A stretch of DNA of 64,000 bases, from assembly GCF_017877055.1 (NCBI RefSeq), contig NZ_JAGIPG010000005.1:124001-188000 (forward strand), given 5' to 3'. Below, piece by piece: positions 1-18,611 of the stretch. How positions within the stretch are numbered: the first letter of the stretch is position 1; each line of letters starts with the position of its first letter. Both the position numbers and the translations under genes were made by a program. Below the pieces are notes generated by a model that was given only the letters and a program-made list of their open reading frames with translations, was not told the DNA's origin and ran no database searches. Source of the DNA: Neorhizobium galegae (lineage in GTDB: Bacteria; Pseudomonadota; Alphaproteobacteria; Rhizobiales; Rhizobiaceae).

Positions 1-2108
1 ATACGACGCGGTTCATCGACACGACGCCGGAACTTTTCGAGCAGGTGAAGCGGGCCGACCGCGCCACCAAGCTGCTCACCTACATCGCCGACGTCACCGT
101 CAACGGCCACCCGGAAACCAAAGGCCGACCGGCGCCGTCCGCGCAGGCGGCAAAACCGGTTCTGCCCTATATCAACGGGCCGATCCCGGACGGCACCAAG
201 CAGCGTCTCGACACGCTCGGCCCCAAAAAATTCGGCGAATGGATGCGCAACGAAAAGCGCGTGCTGATGACCGACACGACGATGCGTGATGGCCATCAGT
301 CGCTGCTGGCCACCCGCATGCGCACCTATGACATCGCGCGCGTCGCCGGCGTCTATGCCCGGGCTCTGCCGAACCTGTTTTCGCTGGAATGCTGGGGCGG
401 GGCGACTTTCGACGTTTCCATGCGCTTCCTCACCGAAGACCCGTGGGAACGCCTGGCGATGATCCGCGAGGGCGCCCCGAACCTGCTTCTGCAGATGCTT
501 CTGCGCGGTGCCAACGGCGTCGGCTACAAGAACTATCCCGACAACGTGGTGAAATATTTCGTTGCCCAAGCGGCCAGGGGCGGCATTGACCTCTTCCGTG
601 TCTTCGACTGCCTGAACTGGGTCGAGAACATGCGCGTCTCGATGGATGCGATCCAGGAGGAGAACAAGCTCTGCGAGGCGGCGATCTGCTATACCGGCGA
701 CCTGCTCAATTCGGCGCGGCCGAAATACGATCTCAAATATTACGTCTCGCTGGCTGAAGAGCTGGAGAAGGCAGGCGCCCATATCATCGCGCTGAAAGAC
801 ATGGCAGGCCTGTTGAAGCCGGCAGCCGCACGCGTGCTGTTCAAGGCGCTGCGCGACGCGACCTCGCTGCCGATCCATTTCCATACGCATGACACGTCCG
901 GCATTTCGGCTGCGACCGTGCTTGCCGCCGTGGATGCGGGCGTCGATGCGGTCGATGCGGCAATGGATGCGGTTTCCGGCAATACCTCGCAGCCCTGCCT
1001 GGGATCGATCGTCGAGGCGCTGGCCGGCGGCGAGCGCGATCCGGGCCTCGATCCGGAATGGATTCGCCGCATCTCGTTCTATTGGGAGGCGGTGCGCAAC
1101 CAATATGCCGCCTTCGAGAGCGATCTCAAGGGGCCGGCGTCGGAAGTCTATCTGCATGAGATGCCGGGCGGTCAGTTCACCAACCTCAAGGAACAGGCCC
1201 GGTCGCTCGGCCTCGACACCAAGTGGCACAAGGTCGCGCAGACCTATGCGGACGTGAACCAGATGTTCGGCGACATCGTCAAGGTGACGCCGTCCTCCAA
1301 GGTGGTCGGGGACATGGCGCTGATGATGGTCTCGCAAGACCTTACCGTCGCCGATGTCGAGAACCCCGCCAAGGACATCGCGTTTCCGGATTCGGTCGTG
1401 TCGATGCTGAAGGGCGATCTCGGACAGCCCCCTGGCGGCTGGCCGGAAGCGCTGCAGAAGAAGGCGCTGAAGGGCGAACAACCCTATACGGCGGTGCCCG
1501 GCTCGCTTTTGCCGCCCGCTGACCTCGCTGCGGAAAGAAAAGTCATCGAGGACAAGCTGGAACGCAAGATCGATGACTTCGAATTTGCGTCCTACCTCAT
1601 GTATCCGAAAGTGTTCACGGACTTTGCCCTGGCCTCCGACACTTATGGCCCGGTCTCGGTGCTGCCGACGCATGCCTATTTCTACGGGCTCGGCGATGGC
1701 GAGGAGCTGTTCGCCGACATCGAGCGGGGCAAGACGCTGGTCGTCGTCAACCAGGCGATGAGCGGCACGGATGCCCAGGGCATGGTCACCGTGTTCTTCG
1801 AGCTGAACGGCCAGCCGCGCCGCATCAAGGTGCCGGACCGCGCGCATGGGGCTTCCGGCAGCGCGGTGCGCCGCAAGGCCGAACTAGGCAATGCAACCCA
1901 TCTCGGCGCGCCGATGCCGGGCGTCATCTCCCGCGTCTTTGCGACAACCGGCCAGGCGGTCAAGGCCGGCGATGTGCTGCTCTCCATCGAGGCAATGAAG
2001 ATGGAGACCGCGCTGCATGCCGAAAAGGATGGCACGATCGCGGAAGTGCTGGTCAAGGCCGGTGACCAGATCGACGCCAAGGATCTGCTGATCGTCTACG
2101 GCGGCTGA
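1..2108 (+). CDS. pyc: Pyruvate carboxylase, C-terminal part (5' end outside window)
   Basis: Biotin-dependent enzyme that carboxylates pyruvate to oxaloacetate, an anaplerotic step. About 700 residues are visible of a family length near 1,150, and the reading frame is open from base 3, so the biotin carboxylase half lies outside. The carboxyltransferase domain starts at DTTMRDGHQSL and contains the metal and lysine motifs IALKDMAG and HFHTHDTSG. It is followed by the PYC/OADA domain and a C-terminal biotinyl domain with AMKM, whose lysine codon is near base 1998. The sequence just before the first in-frame ATG (TTRFIDTTPELFEQVKR) is typical family sequence, so that ATG is not the start. No frameshift is visible. 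Confidence 0.97.
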   Translation, partial: TTRFIDTTPELFEQVKRADRATKLLTYIADVTVNGHPETKGRPAPSAQAAKPVLPYINGPIPDGTKQRLDTLGPKKFGEWMRNEKRVLMTDTTMRDGHQSLLATRMRTYDIARVAGVYARALPNLFSLECWGGATFDVSMRFLTEDPWERLAMIREGAPNLLLQMLLRGANGVGYKNYPDNVVKYFVAQAARGGIDLFRVFDCLNWVENMRVSMDAIQEENKLCEAAICYTGDLLNSARPKYDLKYYVSLAEELEKAGAHIIALKDMAGLLKPAAARVLFKALRDATSLPIHFHTHDTSGISAATVLAAVDAGVDAVDAAMDAVSGNTSQPCLGSIVEALAGGERDPGLDPEWIRRISFYWEAVRNQYAAFESDLKGPASEVYLHEMPGGQFTNLKEQARSLGLDTKWHKVAQTYADVNQMFGDIVKVTPSSKVVGDMALMMVSQDLTVADVENPAKDIAFPDSVVSMLKGDLGQPPGGWPEALQKKALKGEQPYTAVPGSLLPPADLAAERKVIEDKLERKIDDFEFASYLMYPKVFTDFALASDTYGPVSVLPTHAYFYGLGDGEELFADIERGKTLVVVNQAMSGTDAQGMVTVFFELNGQPRRIKVPDRAHGASGSAVRRKAELGNATHLGAPMPGVISRVFATTGQAVKAGDVLLSIEAMKMETALHAEKDGTIAEVLVKAGDQIDAKDLLIVYGG

Positions 2109-2352
2109 GTTCAGCCGCCTTACCCAGTTGCTTGGACTTTCCGGCCGAGCTTTTCGGAAGATGATCATCAGGCCGGCGCCGCCGATCAGGATTGCGCCGG
2201 CCGCGACGTTTGCGGCCGGTGGATTGCCCCAGATCAGGAAACCGAGCGCGAAGGCCCAGTCGAGCGCGGTATATTCGAACGGAGCGAGCACCGAGACCGG
2301 CGCATGCCCTCGAAATAAGGGTACTGCGCCAGACCGCCGCGCAGGCCCTCGG
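2109..2352 (-). pseudogene. Remnant of an EamA/DMT-family transporter
   Basis: Read on the minus strand, this 400-base gap holds the C-terminal signature of a drug/metabolite transporter. The segment APFEYTALDWAFALGFLIWG is followed by a GAILIGGAGLMIIFRKAR helix. The preceding piece, GGLAQYPYFEGM, is in a different frame and would join it directly, so a small indel near 2300 has broken the frame. Nothing recognisable remains of the first eight or so helices, and the frame runs without a stop into the antisense of pyc. This is a truncated, frameshifted relic. Bases 2353-2506 show nothing else apart from the ribosome binding site of the next gene. Confidence 0.75.
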
Positions 2353-2506
2353 AAGCCGGAGTTTCGGCAACCTGTCAATCGCCGCGAACATTTCTCGTCG
2401 TTGCGGGTTTCCCCTCGATACAATTTGTGAGAGGGAGGGCCCTTTCGCAGCGTTGCAATTTCAATCGATTTAAATATGGTCGCGGCGATCGAAGAGGAAC
2501 ATATCC

Positions 2507-3697
2507 ATGGATAGTCGCGCGCCCGTAAACACTGCCTCCGGCACACGCACTTTCATCACCCGCGAAAGAGTTGGTGTGTCGCTGCTCTTTCTGATGAACG
2601 GCTTCATGGTCGGCGCCTGGGCACCAAAAATTCCCGAATTCGCAAGCCGGTTGAGCTTGAGCGAGAGCTCGCTCGGGCTGATGATCCTGACATTCGGGCT
2701 CGGATCACTCGTGATGATGCCGCTTGCCGGCAGCCAGATCGCCCGGTTCGGCTCCAGCCAGGTCTCCAAATACACGTCCGTGCTTCTGACGCCGACATTG
2801 TTGCTCCTCACGTGGGTCGGCAGCATCTGGTCCGGTGCGGTCGCCATCTTCCTGTTCGGCGGTTTGATCGGGGCGATGGACGTGGCGATGAATGCCAATG
2901 CGGTTTCGGTCGAGAAGAAGATGCGCCGGGCGATCATGTCGTCCTGCCACGCCTTCTGGAGCCTCGGCGGGTTGCTCGGCTCGTCGACGGGCGGTTTTCT
3001 CATCGAACATATCGGCGTTTCCGTGCATGCCATCCTGGTCACGGCGCTTGCCGCGCTGATGATCGTCGCCGCCTGGCGGACGGTGCTGCACGACGCGCCG
3101 CATCCGGATGAGGCAAGGCATGGCGGAAGCCGCCTGCCGCGTTCGCCGCTGCCCTGGCTGATCGGCATCATGGCGCTGTTCTGCATGATCCCGGAAGGGG
3201 CGATCCTCGATTGGGGTGCGCTTTACCTTCGCAACGAGCTTGCGGCTTCGGTCACCCTGTCCGGTTTCGCCTTCGCGGCCTTTTCGCTGACCATGGCGAC
3301 GATGCGTTTTGCCGGCGACCTGATCCGCGACCGTTTTGGCGCGGTGAAGACGCTGCGGGTCTGCGCCGTCATCTCGATCTTCGGCCTGCTGCTGATCGGC
3401 TTTGCCCAGAATGCGCCGATGGCGATCGCCGGTTTTGCGCTGACGGGCATCGGCATTTCCAACATCGTGCCGATCGCCTTCTCCGCGGCCGGCAACCTGC
3501 CGGGCATGGCCGCCGGCGTCGGGCTCTCGGTGGTCACGACCATGGGTTATTCCGGCATCCTGGTCGCGCCATCCGCCATCGGCTTCATTGCCGAGCATAC
3601 CGGCCTTGCGATCATCTTCGCCGGCCTTTCGGTGCTGATCGTCGTGGTGCTCATGCTCTCACCCTTGGCCAAACATGCGGACACGGCGCATCACTAG
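2507..3697 (+). CDS. MFS transporter, YbjJ-like
   Basis: A 396-residue major facilitator superfamily protein of the inner membrane, with about twelve hydrophobic segments and an arginine/serine-rich cytoplasmic start. The N-terminal half has GFMVGAWAPKIPEFASRL, a pattern of the YbjJ-type subgroup, and a short basic loop (DAPHPDEARHGG) separates the two six-helix halves. The start is supported by GAGGAAC eight bases upstream. The substrate cannot be told from sequence. It stands alone between the EamA relic and ispG. Confidence 0.85.
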   Translation: MDSRAPVNTASGTRTFITRERVGVSLLFLMNGFMVGAWAPKIPEFASRLSLSESSLGLMILTFGLGSLVMMPLAGSQIARFGSSQVSKYTSVLLTPTLLLLTWVGSIWSGAVAIFLFGGLIGAMDVAMNANAVSVEKKMRRAIMSSCHAFWSLGGLLGSSTGGFLIEHIGVSVHAILVTALAALMIVAAWRTVLHDAPHPDEARHGGSRLPRSPLPWLIGIMALFCMIPEGAILDWGALYLRNELAASVTLSGFAFAAFSLTMATMRFAGDLIRDRFGAVKTLRVCAVISIFGLLLIGFAQNAPMAIAGFALTGIGISNIVPIAFSAAGNLPGMAAGVGLSVVTTMGYSGILVAPSAIGFIAEHTGLAIIFAGLSVLIVVVLMLSPLAKHADTAHH

Positions 3698-11900: not shown

Positions 11901-13082
<1,182 letters not shown>

Positions 13083-13217
13083 TATTTTAGAAGGATGTGG
13101 ATAATCCCGCAGGTTGCAAAACTTCGTGGCGGGACTATCTCTCCATCAAGCATGTCAAAATAGGTAAGTATCCGGTCACACAGAAGGACCGGACCAAATC
13201 GAAGAGGGGAAAATCGC

Positions 13218-13946
13218 ATGAGCAGGGTTGCATTGGTTTCGGGAGGAACGCGTGGGATCGGAGCAGCCATCTCCATCGCGTTGAAGGCGGTCGGTTATCG
13301 TGTTGCCGCAAATTTCGCGGGCAATGAGGAAAAGGCGAAGGCATTCCACGACGAAACCGGCATTCCGGTCTTCAAATGGGATGTCTCCAGCTATCAGGCC
13401 TGCGTCGACGGCATTGCAAAAGTGGAGGCCGAGCTCGGCCCGATCGAGGTGCTCGTCAACAATGCGGGCATCACCCGTGACGGCATGTTCCACAAGATGA
13501 CACCTGAACAGTGGAACGAGGTGATCGGCACCAACCTGACCGGTCTCTTCAACATGACGCATCCGGTCTGGACGGGCATGCGCGACCGCAGTTTCGGCCG
13601 GGTCATCAACATCTCCTCCATCAACGGCCAGAAGGGCCAGATGGGCCAGGTGAACTATTCGGCGGCCAAGGCCGGCGATCTCGGCTTCACCAAGGCGTTG
13701 GCCCAGGAAGGCGCTGCAAAGAACATCACCGTCAACGCCATCTGCCCCGGTTACATCGCCACCGAAATGGTGCGGGCTGTGCCGGAAAAGGTGCTGAACG
13801 AGCGGATCATTCCGCTGATCCCGGTCGGGCGCCTCGGCGAACCGGAAGAGATTGCCCGTTGCGTCGTATTCCTCGCCTCCGACGATGCCGGCTTCATCAC
13901 CGGTTCGACGCTGACGGCGAATGGCGGCCAGTTCTTCGCGAGCTGA
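13218..13946 (+). CDS. phaB: Acetoacetyl-CoA reductase
   Basis: NADPH-dependent short-chain dehydrogenase that reduces acetoacetyl-CoA to (R)-3-hydroxybutyryl-CoA, the monomer for PHB. It has 242 residues. The cofactor motif is SGGTRGIG, the structural motif is NNAG, and the catalytic Ser-Tyr-Lys triad lies in NISSINGQ and NYSAAKAG. The PhaB signature NGQKGQMGQVNYSAAKAG is present, and the protein ends with a typical TLTANGGQ. AGAGGGGA lies upstream. It acts directly after phaA. Confidence 0.96.
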   Translation: MSRVALVSGGTRGIGAAISIALKAVGYRVAANFAGNEEKAKAFHDETGIPVFKWDVSSYQACVDGIAKVEAELGPIEVLVNNAGITRDGMFHKMTPEQWNEVIGTNLTGLFNMTHPVWTGMRDRSFGRVINISSINGQKGQMGQVNYSAAKAGDLGFTKALAQEGAAKNITVNAICPGYIATEMVRAVPEKVLNERIIPLIPVGRLGEPEEIARCVVFLASDDAGFITGSTLTANGGQFFAS

Positions 13947-14036
13947 TCTTCGCCATTAACCTTCGAGCGGGTTTCTGCGCATGGTGGTTGCGCCGAAACG
14001 GCCGGTCTCTATGGTTAACAAACTGTTTTTACACGA

Positions 14037-14097
14037 CATATTGCGGTGAACAAACCGCGAAACGGGTGATGTCGCCGATTCGTCGGCGATTCGTTCC
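14037..14097 (+). repeat. Copy 1 of an undescribed intergenic repeat
   Basis: The shared pattern is CATAT, then GAACAAA, then exactly 22 bases, then paired GATTC sites 11 bases apart (14077 and 14088) ending in GATTCGTTCC. The same layout recurs at 14853 and 15113. This copy lies downstream of phaB. Confidence 0.7.
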
Positions 14098-14134
14098 GGC
14101 TTTGGCCAAAGGTTAATGCCGGCGGTCTCTGAGG

Positions 14135-14170
14135 CAAAACAAAACCGGCGCCGATTGCTCGGGCACCGGT
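14135..14170 (-). terminator. Terminator of the glycine-zipper/DUF3309 operon
   Basis: On the minus strand ACCGGTGCC pairs with GGCGCCGGT (one mismatch) and is followed by TTTTGTTTTG. Confidence 0.65.
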
Positions 14171-14197
14171 CCTGAGGGACTGGATTATTGCTCGCGA

Positions 14198-14455
14198 TTA
14201 GCGGCAACGCGCCTCGTAACGGCGGCCGTAACGGTCGCGATAGATGCAATAGCCGCGGCGTTCCGAGGACTGGCCGATCGCAGCGCCGACAAGGCCGCCT
14301 GCAACTGCGCCAACTGCCGCACCACCCCAACTATTCGTCACGGCACCACCGATCACCGCACCTGTGCCGGCGCCGATTGCGGTGCCGCGTTCAGTTGCAG
14401 TACAGGAGGCGAGCGTGCCGATCATGCAGCCCGCAATCAGAATCTTCTTCATCAT
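14198..14455 (-). CDS. Small glycine-zipper lipoprotein
   Basis: An 85-residue lipoprotein with signal peptide MMKKILIAGCMIGTLASC (lipobox LASC). A glycine-zipper run of alternating G/A residues follows (residues about 26-62), then a basic C-terminus with RDRYGRRYEARCR. Proteins of this shape are outer-membrane-associated and often stress-induced. It begins 41 bases after the DUF3309 gene on the same strand, and the gap shows no terminator or promoter, so the two are probably co-transcribed from the EcfG-type promoter at 14698-14722. Confidence 0.82.
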   Translation of the reverse strand: MMKKILIAGCMIGTLASCTATERGTAIGAGTGAVIGGAVTNSWGGAAVGAVAGGLVGAAIGQSSERRGYCIYRDRYGRRYEARCR

Positions 14456-14496
14456 GTCAGTTTCCCTTCCCTTTGGTACACACGGCTACGCCGCTT

Positions 14497-14652
14497 TTAA
14501 ATCCTGCCCATCAGCAGCAGGATAATGATGATAAGCACTACAAGGCCCAATCCGCCCGACGGACCATAGCCCCAGCCTCGGCTATAGCCCCAATTCGGCA
14601 ACGCGCCAATGAGTAGCAGAATGAGGATGACGAGCAACACGGTTCCGAGCAT
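14497..14652 (-). CDS. DUF3309-type small membrane peptide
   Basis: A 51-residue peptide, MLGTVLLVILILLLIGALPN and so on, ending MGRI. Two hydrophobic helices flank a glycine/tyrosine-rich turn (WGYSRGWGYGPSGG), the pattern of the DUF3309 family. No function is known to me. A sequence matching the general-stress sigma consensus lies 46 bases upstream, so induction in stress or stationary phase is likely. Confidence 0.8.
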   Translation of the reverse strand: MLGTVLLVILILLLIGALPNWGYSRGWGYGPSGGLGLVVLIIIILLLMGRI

Positions 14653-14697
14653 GGTTTTTCTACTCCGCTAGATAATCCGGTATGGATTTGGCGAGGA

Positions 14698-14722
14698 AAC
14701 GTAGCACCGCGATTTTTGTTCC
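14698..14722 (-). promoter_or_regulatory. EcfG (RpoE2)-type promoter of the DUF3309 operon
   Basis: On the minus strand the sequence is GGAAC, 16 bases, CGTT. It matches the alphaproteobacterial general-stress consensus exactly and sits 46 bases before the DUF3309 start codon. Confidence 0.75.
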
Positions 14723-14852
14723 ATCGGGTTGCACGCGTGTGCTCTCAGGTGTGGTTAAAGTGCGTTAGCCAATGTTAATGGCACCTGAACGATTCGCTTC
14801 GGAGGTCTTTACCGCGACGATTTTCTTGCGGGTCTCTCCTGATGGTGCCTAC

Positions 14853-14914
14853 CATATCTTGTGAGAACAAATGGCGAAGACATGGATGTCTGTGATTCGT
14901 CGGCGATTCGTTCC
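14853..14914 (+). repeat. Copy 2 of the intergenic repeat
   Basis: CATAT, GAACAAA at 14865-14871, 22 bases, then GATTC at 14894 and 14905, ending GATTCGTTCC. The sequence GATTCGTCGGCGATTCGTTC is identical to copy 1. Confidence 0.7.
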
Positions 14915-15112
14915 GCGTTTGGCCTGAATCTTAATTCTGTGCTCGAACGAGGGTGGAGCAGCCTGAATCGGTTGATGAAACATTAACCATATCAATGGAT
15001 TGACTCTTTCGATTCTTCGTGAAAGCGCAGCTTCGGGATGAATCCTTCGGTTGTGTGCACCCAATCTTGATGCAGATTCAGGATGTCGTGGGCGGAGCCG
15101 GGGCCGCATCAA

Positions 15113-15173
15113 CATATAGCGGTGAACAAAAGCTGAATCTTCTGGAGTCTGCGATTCGTCTCCGATTCGTTCG
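15113..15173 (+). repeat. Copy 3 of the intergenic repeat
   Basis: CATAT, GAACAAA at 15124-15130, 22 bases, then GATTC at 15153 and 15164, ending GATTCGTTCG. It differs from copies 1 and 2 by two bases between the GATTC pair. Confidence 0.68.
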
Positions 15174-15377
15174 CGTCTGTTCCTTGGGCGTTTGAAATTC
15201 GAATCGCCGAGCCTTGATTTGCTGCCTTCGGCGATCATTCTGCGGCCGCAAAACCATTCTTCAGGCTTGCGTTTGTCGGCCGAGATCGCCATGTGTTGCG
15301 TGGCTTTGAGTTTTGGGCGAAGGCGCGAGACTTGAGGCTTATGTGATGCGCGGAACCAGGCTTTGAATTTCCAGCCC

Positions 15378-18300
15378 ATGATGCTCAGCGGGCGCGGCGT
15401 CACCGCCGTCCTCGGACCCACCAATACCGGCAAGACCCATTACGCCATCGAGCGAATGGTGGCGCATGGCACCGGTGTGATCGGCCTGCCGCTCCGGCTG
15501 CTGGCGCGCGAGGTCTATACGCGCCTTGTCGAGAAGGTCGGGGCCTCCCAGGTCGCGCTCGTCACCGGCGAGGAAAAGATCACCCCGCCGAATGCCCGCT
15601 TTTCCGTCTGTACCGTCGAAGCCATGCCGCGCGAGACGAAAGCCTCGTTCGTCGCGATCGACGAGGTGCAGCTTGCGGGAGATCTCGAGCGCGGCCATAT
15701 CTTTACCGACCGCATCCTGCATCTGCGCGGGCGCGATGAAACGCTGCTTCTGGGGGCAGCGACCATGCGGCCTATCCTCGAAAGGCTCCTGCCGGGGATA
15801 ACCGTCGTCGAGCGGCCGAGGCTCTCGCAGCTCTTCTATTCCGGCCAGAAAAAGATCACCCGCCTGCCGCAGCGTTCCGCGATCGTGGCGTTTTCGGCCG
15901 ACGAGGTCTATGCGATCGCCGAGCTCATTCGCCGCCAGCGCGGCGGCGCTGCGGTCGTGCTCGGCGCGCTCAGCCCCCGGACCCGCAATGCTCAGGTCGG
16001 CCTCTACCAGTCCGGCGACGTCGAATATCTCGTCGCGACGGATGCGATCGGCATGGGGCTCAATCTCGACGTCGATCACGTGGCGTTCGCCCAGGACCGG
16101 AAATTCGACGGCTATCAGTTCCGCAGTCTCAATCCGGCCGAACTCGCGCAGATCGCCGGCCGCGCCGGGCGGCATGTGCGGGACGGGACGTTTGGGGTGA
16201 CCGGTCAGGTCGCACCTTTCGAGGACGAATTGGTCGAGCGAATCGAAAGCCATCATTTCGATCCGGTCAAAGTGCTGCAGTGGCGCTCGAAAAACCTCGA
16301 TTTTTCGTCACTCAAGGCTCTCCGGGACAGTCTGGATGCGGCGCCGACCCTTGCGGGCTTGACGCGCGCGCTTCCCGCGACCGACAGCCAAGCCTTTGAT
16401 TATCTTTCGCGTTATCCCGAAATCAAGGACATCGCGACGACGCCGCAGCGGGTCGAGAAACTCTGGGAAGCCTGTGCCTTGCCGGATTACCGGCGAATTG
16501 CGCCGGCGCAGCACGCCGACCTTATTTCGACTCTTTTTTCCGATCTTGTACGCTTCGGGACGGTGAATGAAGAATTCATGGCGGAACAGGTTCGCCGCGC
16601 CGACCGCACCGACGGTGAAATCGACACGCTGTCGGCCCGCATAGCGCAGATCCGGACCTGGACCTACGTCTCTAATCGCCCTGGCTGGCTTGCCGATCCG
16701 ACACACTGGCAAGAAAAGACACGGGAAATAGAGGATAGGTTATCGGACGCGCTACATGAAAGGTTGACGAAACGCTTTGTTGATCGCAGGACATCTGTGC
16801 TCATGAAGCGCCTGAGAGAGAATGCGATGCTGGAAGCTGAAATCAGTGTGAATGGCGATGTCTTCGTAGAGGGACATCACGTCGGGCAATTGGCCGGTTT
16901 CCGGTTTACGCCCGTTTCGGGAACCGAGGGGCCCGACGCCAAGGCGGTGCAGGGTGCCGCTCAGAAAGCGCTGGCGCTCGAATTCGAGGCGCGGGCTGCG
17001 AGGCTCTATGCCTCCGGCAACAGCGATCTGGCAGTCGGTTCCGACGGTTTCGTGCGCTGGCTCGGCGAACCCATCGCCCGTCTTGCGCCGACCGAGCATG
17101 TCATGCGTCCGCGCGTCATCCTGCTCTCCGACGAGCAGCTGACCGGCAATGCGCGCGAACACGTGCTCGCCCGCCTCGAACGCTTCGTCAATCATCACAT
17201 CGCGACGGTTCTGAAGCCGCTCGACGATCTGTCGCGCGCCGAAGACCTGCAGGGCCTTGCCAAGGGGCTGGCTTTCCAGCTCGTCGAGAGCCTTGGCGTG
17301 CTGTTCCGGCGCGACGTCGCGGACGAGGTGAAGACGCTCGATCAGGATGCGCGCGCTTCGATGCGCCGCTACGGCATCCGTTTCGGCGCTTATCACGTCT
17401 TCATGCCGATGCTTTTGAAGCCGGCTCCGGCCGAGCTCATAACGCTCCTCTGGGCGCTGAAGAACGACGGTCTCGACAAGCCCGGTTACGGCGATCTCAT
17501 CCCGGCGCTTGCGGCAGGGCGCACTTCCGTGGTCGCCGATCCGACGTTCGAGCGGATGTTCTACAAGCTTGCCGGTTTCCGTTTCCTCGGCAAGCGTGCG
17601 GTGCGTATCGACATCCTGGAGCGCCTTGCCGATCTCATCCGTCCGCTTCTGCAGTGGAAGCCCGGCGCGACGCCGCGTCCGGAAGGTGCCTATGACGGCC
17701 GCCGCTTCGTGGCCACGACCGCCATGCTCTCCATCCTGGGAGCTACGCCGGACGACATGGAAGAAATCCTGAAAGGTCTTGGATATCGTGCCGATGCCGT
17801 GAAGGCGGAAGAGGCGCAGGCGTTCCTGGCTGGCCAGGATGCCGGTTCGGCGAGCGCTGTAGCTGCCGCCGCACCGGCTGTGGCGCCGGCGGAAGACACG
17901 CCGGAGGCTTCCGAAACCGATGATGCCGATGCGAGCGACGCCCCGGCCGAGACTGCGGCAGAAGCCGCCCCGGCTGAGACTGCGGCGGAAGGTGCTCCAG
18001 CCGAGACTGCTCCGGAGACGGCTTCGGCCGAAGCTTCGGCAACCGGCTCCGCTTCTTCCGAAGAAGTTCCCGCGGAGCAGGCATCGGCTGGCGAACCGAC
18101 CGACGAGGCAAAGGCTGCCGAGGCTGGAGAGCCGAAACCGGTCCTGCTGTGGCGTCCGGGCGGCGGCCGTGAAAACAACCAGCGTGGCGGACGTCCGCAG
18201 CATGGCGACCGTCGCGGTCATGGCGGCCAGCGCAACAACGCCGGCGGCGAGGCGGGCCAGCCTGCCCAGGGTCGCCGTGACGACCGTCGCGACGGCGGCG

Positions 18301-18611
18301 AGCGGCGCGATGCGCGTCCGAACGGCGAACGTGGTGGCGAACGCAACGGCGGCGGTGATCGCCGGGACGGCGGCAAGCCGAACCGCGACAACAACCGCCG
18401 GCCGGACAACAACAATAACAACAATCGCGGGGGCGATCGTCCGAACCGCGGGGAGCGCCACGAAGGTGGTCCGCGTCCGGACCGCAACGACCGCGGCAAA
18501 GGGCCGCAGCCCGCTCGCTTCGAGGCCAAGCCGCCCCGCAAGGAAAAGCCGATCGATCCGGACTCGCCCTTTGCAAAACTTGCAGCTCTCAAGGAGCAGA
18601 TGAAGAAGTAG
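15378..18611 (+). CDS. SUV3-like RNA/DNA helicase with low-complexity RGG-type tail
   Basis: A protein of about 1,077 residues related to the SUPV3L1/SUV3 superfamily-2 helicases. The Walker A motif is GPTNTGKTH, motif II is DEVQ (in IDEVQLAGD), and motif VI reads QIAGRAGRH. The helicase core ends near residue 400 and is followed by a SUV3 C-terminal region. From about residue 830 the sequence turns into Ala/Glu/Pro repeats (AETAAEAAPAETAAEGAPAE), then Gly/Arg/Asn-rich RGG-like runs (NNNNNRGGDRPNRGERHEGG), a likely RNA-binding disordered tail. ATG 15378 or 15381 is the likely start; neither has a good ribosome site. The S4 gene follows after three bases. The function is presumably RNA processing or degradation. 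Confidence 0.85.
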   Translation: MMLSGRGVTAVLGPTNTGKTHYAIERMVAHGTGVIGLPLRLLAREVYTRLVEKVGASQVALVTGEEKITPPNARFSVCTVEAMPRETKASFVAIDEVQLAGDLERGHIFTDRILHLRGRDETLLLGAATMRPILERLLPGITVVERPRLSQLFYSGQKKITRLPQRSAIVAFSADEVYAIAELIRRQRGGAAVVLGALSPRTRNAQVGLYQSGDVEYLVATDAIGMGLNLDVDHVAFAQDRKFDGYQFRSLNPAELAQIAGRAGRHVRDGTFGVTGQVAPFEDELVERIESHHFDPVKVLQWRSKNLDFSSLKALRDSLDAAPTLAGLTRALPATDSQAFDYLSRYPEIKDIATTPQRVEKLWEACALPDYRRIAPAQHADLISTLFSDLVRFGTVNEEFMAEQVRRADRTDGEIDTLSARIAQIRTWTYVSNRPGWLADPTHWQEKTREIEDRLSDALHERLTKRFVDRRTSVLMKRLRENAMLEAEISVNGDVFVEGHHVGQLAGFRFTPVSGTEGPDAKAVQGAAQKALALEFEARAARLYASGNSDLAVGSDGFVRWLGEPIARLAPTEHVMRPRVILLSDEQLTGNAREHVLARLERFVNHHIATVLKPLDDLSRAEDLQGLAKGLAFQLVESLGVLFRRDVADEVKTLDQDARASMRRYGIRFGAYHVFMPMLLKPAPAELITLLWALKNDGLDKPGYGDLIPALAAGRTSVVADPTFERMFYKLAGFRFLGKRAVRIDILERLADLIRPLLQWKPGATPRPEGAYDGRRFVATTAMLSILGATPDDMEEILKGLGYRADAVKAEEAQAFLAGQDAGSASAVAAAAPAVAPAEDTPEASETDDADASDAPAETAAEAAPAETAAEGAPAETAPETASAEASATGSASSEEVPAEQASAGEPTDEAKAAEAGEPKPVLLWRPGGGRENNQRGGRPQHGDRRGHGGQRNNAGGEAGQPAQGRRDDRRDGGERRDARPNGERGGERNGGGDRRDGGKPNRDNNRRPDNNNNNNRGGDRPNRGERHEGGPRPDRNDRGKGPQPARFEAKPPRKEKPIDPDSPFAKLAALKEQMKK

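Follow-up and report, generated by a model that had tools for sequence, protein, structure and literature searches.

The window examined here, a 64,000-nucleotide stretch of the Neorhizobium galegae genome, carries the gene order phaR-phaA-phaB, a glycine-zipper gene, a DUF3309 gene, a group of repeats, a Suv3-type helicase gene and an S4-domain gene. The helicase gene is presumably the orthologue of Sinorhizobium meliloti SMc03877 (mgpS), which is termed an RNA helicase in PMC4941405. Rhizobium sp. NLR16a has a similar annotated gene order, as does S. meliloti Ak57 except that the two small genes are missing there; ferredoxin and CarD genes follow in both. The features of the region are given below; the boundaries of the three repeat copies r1 to r3, flanks included, were set by comparison with relatives.

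13218-13946, plus strand: phaB-like reductase gene, upstream of r1
14034-14118, plus strand: r1, with core CGATTCG at 14076-14082, second GATTC at 14088, GAACAAA at 14048-14054 and TTAA at 14113-14116
14198-14455, minus strand: glycine-zipper lipoprotein-like gene, convergent to r1
14497-14652, minus strand: gene for a DUF3309 small protein of 51 aa, with an annotated counterpart at this place in Rhizobium sp. NLR16a
14791-15205, no strand: GANTC cluster of 14 sites, seven within r2 and r3 and seven between or beside them
14851-14935, plus strand: r2, with core TGATTCG at 14893-14899, second GATTC at 14905, GAACAAA at 14865-14871, GAATC at 14926 and TTAA at 14931-14934
14983-14990, plus strand: TTAACCAT, CtrA half-site-like, between r2 and r3, identical in five of six close relatives
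15110-15194, plus strand: r3, with GAACAAA at 15124-15130, GAATC at 15135, GAGTC at 15145, core CGATTCG at 15152-15158 and second GATTC at 15164
15363-18611, plus strand: gene for a Suv3-type, MgpS-like RNA helicase of 1082 aa, with which the element is associated

The original prediction of 14 GANTC sites within 415 bp was reproduced exactly, the sites lying at 14791-15201. The cluster is also intergenic, with the DUF3309 gene on one side and the helicase gene on the other; a putative open 194-aa reading frame on the minus strand overlaps it. Every other non-overlapping 415-bp stretch of the window holds at most four GANTC sites (mean 0.60). For the genome of origin, 40 stretches of 20 kb (12.6% of 6.35 Mb, the cluster locus included) were scanned. 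They contain 888 GANTC sites in 800 kb, or 1.11 per kb, and the 14 sites of the cluster form the maximum, the runner-up window holding six. The cluster is unique within this 800-kb sample, which is not the whole genome. Chance or base composition as its source is slightly favoured by the G+C content, 50% in the 415-bp stretch against 62% in the window, which slightly lifts the number of GANTC sites. However, shuffling the 907-bp spacer between the lipoprotein gene and the helicase gene yields 3.2 sites where 14 are observed, so that low G+C explains only little of the cluster, and the cluster is without equal in the 800 kb sampled. The seven sites outside the repeat copies are kept on average in 3.86 of six close relatives, against a background of 1.93 (resampling p 0.004).

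Three pairs of GATTC placed 11 bp apart had been reported at 14077/14088, 14894/14905 and 15153/15164, and these coordinates are correct. Each pair forms the core of one of three diverged direct repeats of about 85 bp, which the original prediction did not mention; r1 lies outside 14791-15205 and faces the 3' end of the convergent gene. The copy closest to the helicase gene, r3, lacks TTAA at the usual place and keeps all four of its GANTC sites in six of six close relatives. A CtrA half-site had been placed at 14985; TTAACCAT is indeed present, with its start at 14983. When up to two mismatches were allowed, the core pattern occurred at three places in the 6.35-Mb genome, all at the mgpS locus, which does not fit a dispersed intergenic repeat of the REP, RIME or MITE type, with its many scattered copies.

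The element also lies upstream of the helicase gene in other genomes. A search with the helicase N-terminus found the gene in 155 of 160 genomes of the order, and about 1 kb of upstream DNA was taken from 80 of the 155, approximately one per genus, without inspection of the sequence. This motif-blind set was searched with a profile of pattern-selected copies. Six of 194 rows were out of context and were removed (L089, L110, L116, L122, L142 and L152), leaving 188; for the search model, three rows with ambiguous letters and then near-duplicates were removed, taking 185 rows to 160. The element was detected at E < 1e-3 in 58 of the 80 regions, every match being on the strand of the gene, and was missing at this threshold from 22. 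The 11 matches on the opposite strand were all weak (E 0.0012 to 0.8), and a shuffled control gave a single match (E 0.14). At the level of the class, the helicase was found in 90 of 142 genomes; among 40 taken from these 90, the element was present upstream in 10 and missing at the same threshold from 30. Model-free counting of words in the 80 regions gave GATTCGG and CGATTCG as the commonest 7-mers by region (51/80 and 50/80), and YGATTCG occurs 139 times on the strand of the gene versus 17 times for its complement. This recurrence across the order speaks against chance or base composition, an explanation to which we give practically no credence and which is refuted by the motif-blind test, the 800-kb scan, whole-genome pattern counts and the model-free word counts.

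At the 68 loci with the element (58 from the order, 10 from the class), one copy was found in 33, two in 32, three in two and four in one. Same-genus genomes carry the element in 24 of 28 spacers, with one to five copies; two of 30 loci, in which no helicase was in view, were left out of this set (L017, L029). Linkage to the helicase gene was also apparent from 80 whole genomes of the order, in which YGATTCGNNCNNNNTTYGTTC occurs 81 times, in 56 genomes, against one occurrence of the reversed-pattern control. At the helicase gene lie 74 of the 81, namely 72 inside the upstream stretches and two, in genomes G184 and G185, at 1.0 and 1.4 kb upstream. The window copies themselves depart from YGATTCGNNCNNNNTTYGTTC at its C position.

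A pattern scan of named genomes returned at least 119 stretches, with sources among the matches listed including Rhizobium, Mesorhizobium, Brucella, Bartonella, Ensifer, Hoeflea, Phyllobacterium and a Hyphomonadaceae MAG. Among the matches listed, 101 of 119 stretches show the helicase gene; in these it shares the strand of every copy and lies downstream of all of them, the nearest copy being a median of 211 bases away (range 102 to 3043; three above 600); 11 more show only pha genes, and seven neither pha genes nor the helicase. The copies share one orientation in all 56 of the 56 multi-copy stretches of the pattern set among the matches listed.

Six records of a plasmid collection match the element, five of them 3.5 to 4.6 Mb in size. 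The NLR16a locus, with rpmF and three element copies, stands on a 489-kb record named plasmid p3 (NZ_CP072868.1, L353). In S. meliloti Ak57 the locus, with rpmF and other genes beside it, stands on a 3.7-Mb record named pSymB (CP090106.1, L352), a name that may be wrong. A phage collection gave no match to the element, and spread by phage was dropped as an explanation.

The architecture of the element was derived from the motif-blind copies. A GANTCG word stands where expected in all 107 matches at E < 1e-3 (97 from the order, 10 from the class), and 104 of them were aligned on this word, three near stretch ends being left out. In the 104 copies the N of GANTCG is always T and the preceding base always C or T, neither of which is imposed by the anchor. 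The base before the core is likewise C or T in all 188 pattern-selected copies, again without having been imposed, whereas the GATTC core of that profile proves nothing, because the selection pattern imposed it. Within the element, YGATTCG on the strand of the gene is the word that varies least, being present in 3/3 window copies and 104/104 motif-blind copies, an invariance that is somewhat overstated because the seed copies had an imposed GATTC and because profile and anchor favour core-bearing copies.

Around this core the approximately 85-bp layout is rigid and nearly ungapped. GAACRAA stands mostly 21 bp to the left of YGATTCG and TTYGTTC 7 bp to the right, with a second GTTC 11 bp further. 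In the 80 upstream regions the gap between GAACRAA and YGATTCG is 21 in 52 cases, 22 in 10 and 32 in seven, and YGATTCG-N7-TTYGTTC occurs 82 times on the strand of the gene and never on the other, all other gaps below 30 totalling five. Among the 104 copies, GTTC at +16 is nearly invariant, and conservation is strong for GTTC at +27, GAAC at -29 and GAA at -18. The four other GANTC slots are filled in only 23 to 36 of 104 copies; the second GATTC seen in the window copies is found in only 23 of the 104. TTAA at +37 is present in 37/104 motif-blind and 120/188 pattern-selected copies; in the window it stands at +36 in r1 and at +37 in r2. One block excepted, there is little conservation upstream of -45 in the pattern-selected copies. 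At the left end, a palindromic block CAnnATnTwG, which spans -43 to -34 (15110-15119 in r3), is similar to the NtrX site CAAN2-5TTG as given in PMC9223101; the strict form of this site is present there in 14/104 motif-blind and 32/188 pattern-selected copies.

The alphaproteobacterial LexA box has the general form GAAC-N7-GAAC, and the arms of the element could accordingly be read as LexA/SOS operators of the helicase gene. The right arm conforms as GTTC-N7-GTTC in 54/104 and 103/188 copies, and 27 of 30 lexA loci, that of our genome included, have GAAC-N7-GAAC in the promoter close to the gene. The left arm, however, is strict in only 8/104 and 21/188 copies, and the lexA promoters have nothing that corresponds to YGATTCG at a set position; YGAKTCG appears in 4/30 of them and is scattered. 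The reading was dropped for the window copies, which carry a strict box on neither arm (0/3), and we consider it very unlikely for the element.

Tandem small-RNA genes, each copy with its own promoter, were initially favoured, given tandem copies at a PHB locus and the precedents of MmgR and alpha-r8; MmgR is placed at 3,046,712 of the S. meliloti chromosome in PMC7143759. The copies are tandem and occasionally occur elsewhere too, a promoter-like TTAACA-16-CATATT lies upstream of r1, and the predicted folds of single copies are slightly more stable than those of mononucleotide shuffles (first 60 of 104; mean z -1.14 on the strand of the gene and -0.56 on the other). Against this stands RNAalifold, which gave no consensus structure on the 104 copies (energy 0.00), a blunt test because column-shuffled alignments also give about zero. 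The arms do not co-vary: their columns are pairable in 55 to 89 of 104 copies and changes are uncompensated, A-25 standing opposite C26 in 33/104. Two terminator-like sites, at 14166 and 15288 (1.5 expected from shuffles), lie 48 and 94 bp past r1 and r3, and none follows r2; Rfam gave no match at gathering score in 13000-16000. The scarce conservation upstream of -45 also counts against this reading. With no family match, consensus structure or copy-end terminator, the small-RNA reading was lowered, and we now regard it as quite unlikely.

Inspection covered the seven occurrences of YGATTCGNNCNNNNTTYGTTC away from the helicase gene. In G193, two copies are flanked by a GST gene and by a convergent gene that looks hydrolase-like by eye (L345); in G167, two copies have a transketolase-like gene on one side and, on the other, a convergent gene judged by eye to be RNase T2-like (L346). 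G070 and G147 have one copy each after a GST gene. A match to YGATTCGNNCNNNNTTYGTTC in G155 lacks the arms and looks like coding DNA. Together with r1, the copies of G193, G167, G070 and G147 are in convergent or 3' intergenic positions, which argues against a plain mgpS promoter and suggests that an element copy does not have to serve a protein gene as its promoter. The G070 GST resembles a GST encoded near phaR in S. meliloti (44% identity; 42% to the G193 GST), so that some of these positions may be remnants of a neighbourhood since broken up.

Copies downstream of GST genes were noted in L345, L348 and L349, and S. meliloti has a GST of the same family a few kb from the element; in these GST-linked genomes an old neighbourhood may have been split. 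A related near-palindrome, GAACGAATC..AATCG..GATTCGTCCGCGATTCGTTC, was seen beside another gene in a Methylopila MAG (L089, position 1891, minus strand) and in Chelatococcus sambhunathii (L110, position 3103, plus strand); the gene near the L089 palindrome encodes a 269-aa product without a Pfam match.

Convergent and 3' intergenic positions would also suit a DNA site that serves something other than transcription control, which is the main rival to a CcrM/GcrA-type module. According to this alternative, a different, perhaps dedicated, protein binds the element, or the element serves chromosome maintenance such as replication timing or anchoring, with CcrM setting its state. The rigid, nearly ungapped layout and the single orientation of the multi-copy stretches listed speak for it, as does a sigma-70 consensus scan, which found no clear promoter pair (one site versus 1.0 in shuffles). 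TGTGGATAA, which we take to be DnaA-box-like from the general form of the alphaproteobacterial DnaA box, adjoins a few copies (L074, L148, L156 and L229). On the other hand, linkage of 74 of 81 occurrences to one gene is more easily explained by control of that gene, and there is no candidate protein. Helical phasing between copies was rejected, as their spacings give no sign of it among the motif-blind regions (Rayleigh p 0.36-0.56); the phasing in the pattern set (p 0.017 or less) is probably due to shared ancestry. We hold a DNA site of this kind to be possible, with the lesser share of probability. The element, tied to one locus and kept in many families, might also be an orientation-specific, CcrM-methylated composite site acting as a sensor of replication passage, a hemimethylation clock read by a dedicated complex, and not a promoter, known operator or RNA gene; copies in convergent positions would then be the same device elsewhere. 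This we consider rather doubtful.

To judge from its sequence, we give an even chance to the cluster being built around a conserved CcrM/GcrA-type regulatory DNA module, present at the mgpS locus in three tandem copies. The core of the element is the GcrA motif YGAKTCG with K always T, and YGAKTCG/YGAKTCK is described in PMC7987155 as the context for activation of methylated Caulobacter promoters by GcrA. GcrA binding is methylation-dependent and GcrA contacts RNA polymerase (PMC3667746). Counting against the CcrM/GcrA reading, GcrA sites of B. subvibrioides are reported in PMC7987155 to be without the extended motif. The genome of origin encodes a RAMA (CcrM-type) domain protein (E 1.2e-17) and GcrA (E 2.0e-59). 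A RAMA domain match was found in 80/80 genomes, 79 of them above the cut-off, and GcrA in 40/40 genomes of the order tested, our own included. This presence alone proves nothing, because all 22 genomes of the order without the element encode GcrA and have a RAMA match (that of G083 below the cut-off). In the class sample, GcrA is above the cut-off in 9/10 genomes with the element and 22/30 without, rates from which co-occurrence says little. Co-occurrence of GcrA or CcrM was therefore set aside as an uninformative test of the reading.

What the analysis shows is the sequence, conservation, orientation and linkage of the element; methylation, GcrA binding, a protein at the GAAC arms and a transcript we infer. 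CcrM would methylate the adenines of YGATTCG, and GcrA, together with sigma-70 RNA polymerase, would read the methylated or hemimethylated site. The GAAC-type half-sites would be bound by some further protein, and the TTAA of the element perhaps by CtrA. The copies could thereby tie transcription in the mgpS region to replication and cell-cycle state, the product being mgpS mRNA, a leader or a non-coding RNA. The original prediction is supported in part: its methylation-sensitive regulatory zone gains comparative support for a CcrM/GcrA reading, but the GANTC sites are not all equally important.

CcrM/GcrA sites as such are known; a literature search that covered mostly open-access texts without supplements gave no description of a rigid, tandem composite element linked to a single gene in many families. 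CcrM/GcrA regulons and the GcrA motif are said to overlap very little between species (PMC8725594, citing PMC7987155). If the CcrM/GcrA reading is true, a site of this type kept next to the same gene in many families would be a target of unusual stability and would suggest that the MgpS/Suv3-like helicase has a core function in the cell cycle. In S. meliloti, for which published methylome and cell-cycle studies exist, the spacer with the element contains up to 13 GANTC per 415 bp, so that the question is testable at once.

Known systems share single traits with the element. Alphaproteobacterial LexA boxes have GAAC/GTTC half-sites 11 bp apart, as it does; unlike them, the element has a methylation-site core between its arms, and strict boxes are missing from the window copies and from most left arms. 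Hypomethylated GANTC sites shielded by MucR in Caulobacter and Sinorhizobium (PMC5172544) are comparable in that methylation state may carry regulatory information, but no fixed sequence module was found for them in that article, and its main text makes no mention of a helicase or of phbB. The tandem rhizobial small RNAs AbcR1/AbcR2 (PMC7143759) are likewise tandem homologous intergenic units, whereas for the element neither a consensus RNA structure nor a terminator at the copy ends was found.

The GcrA/CcrM promoters of Caulobacter (ctrA P1, mipZ, podJ) have, like the element, a CcrM site in YGAKTCG context near TTAA. At ctrA P1, GANTC lies at about -29 and TTAA at -14 (PMC4287350), a 15-bp offset like that from the +22 slot of the element to TTAA at +37, although only 6/104 copies have both. 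The element differs from these promoters in showing no clear -35/-10 pair in the consensus scan. It differs further in being a module of approximately 85 bp with GAAC-type arms, arranged in one to five tandem copies and associated with one gene in many families.
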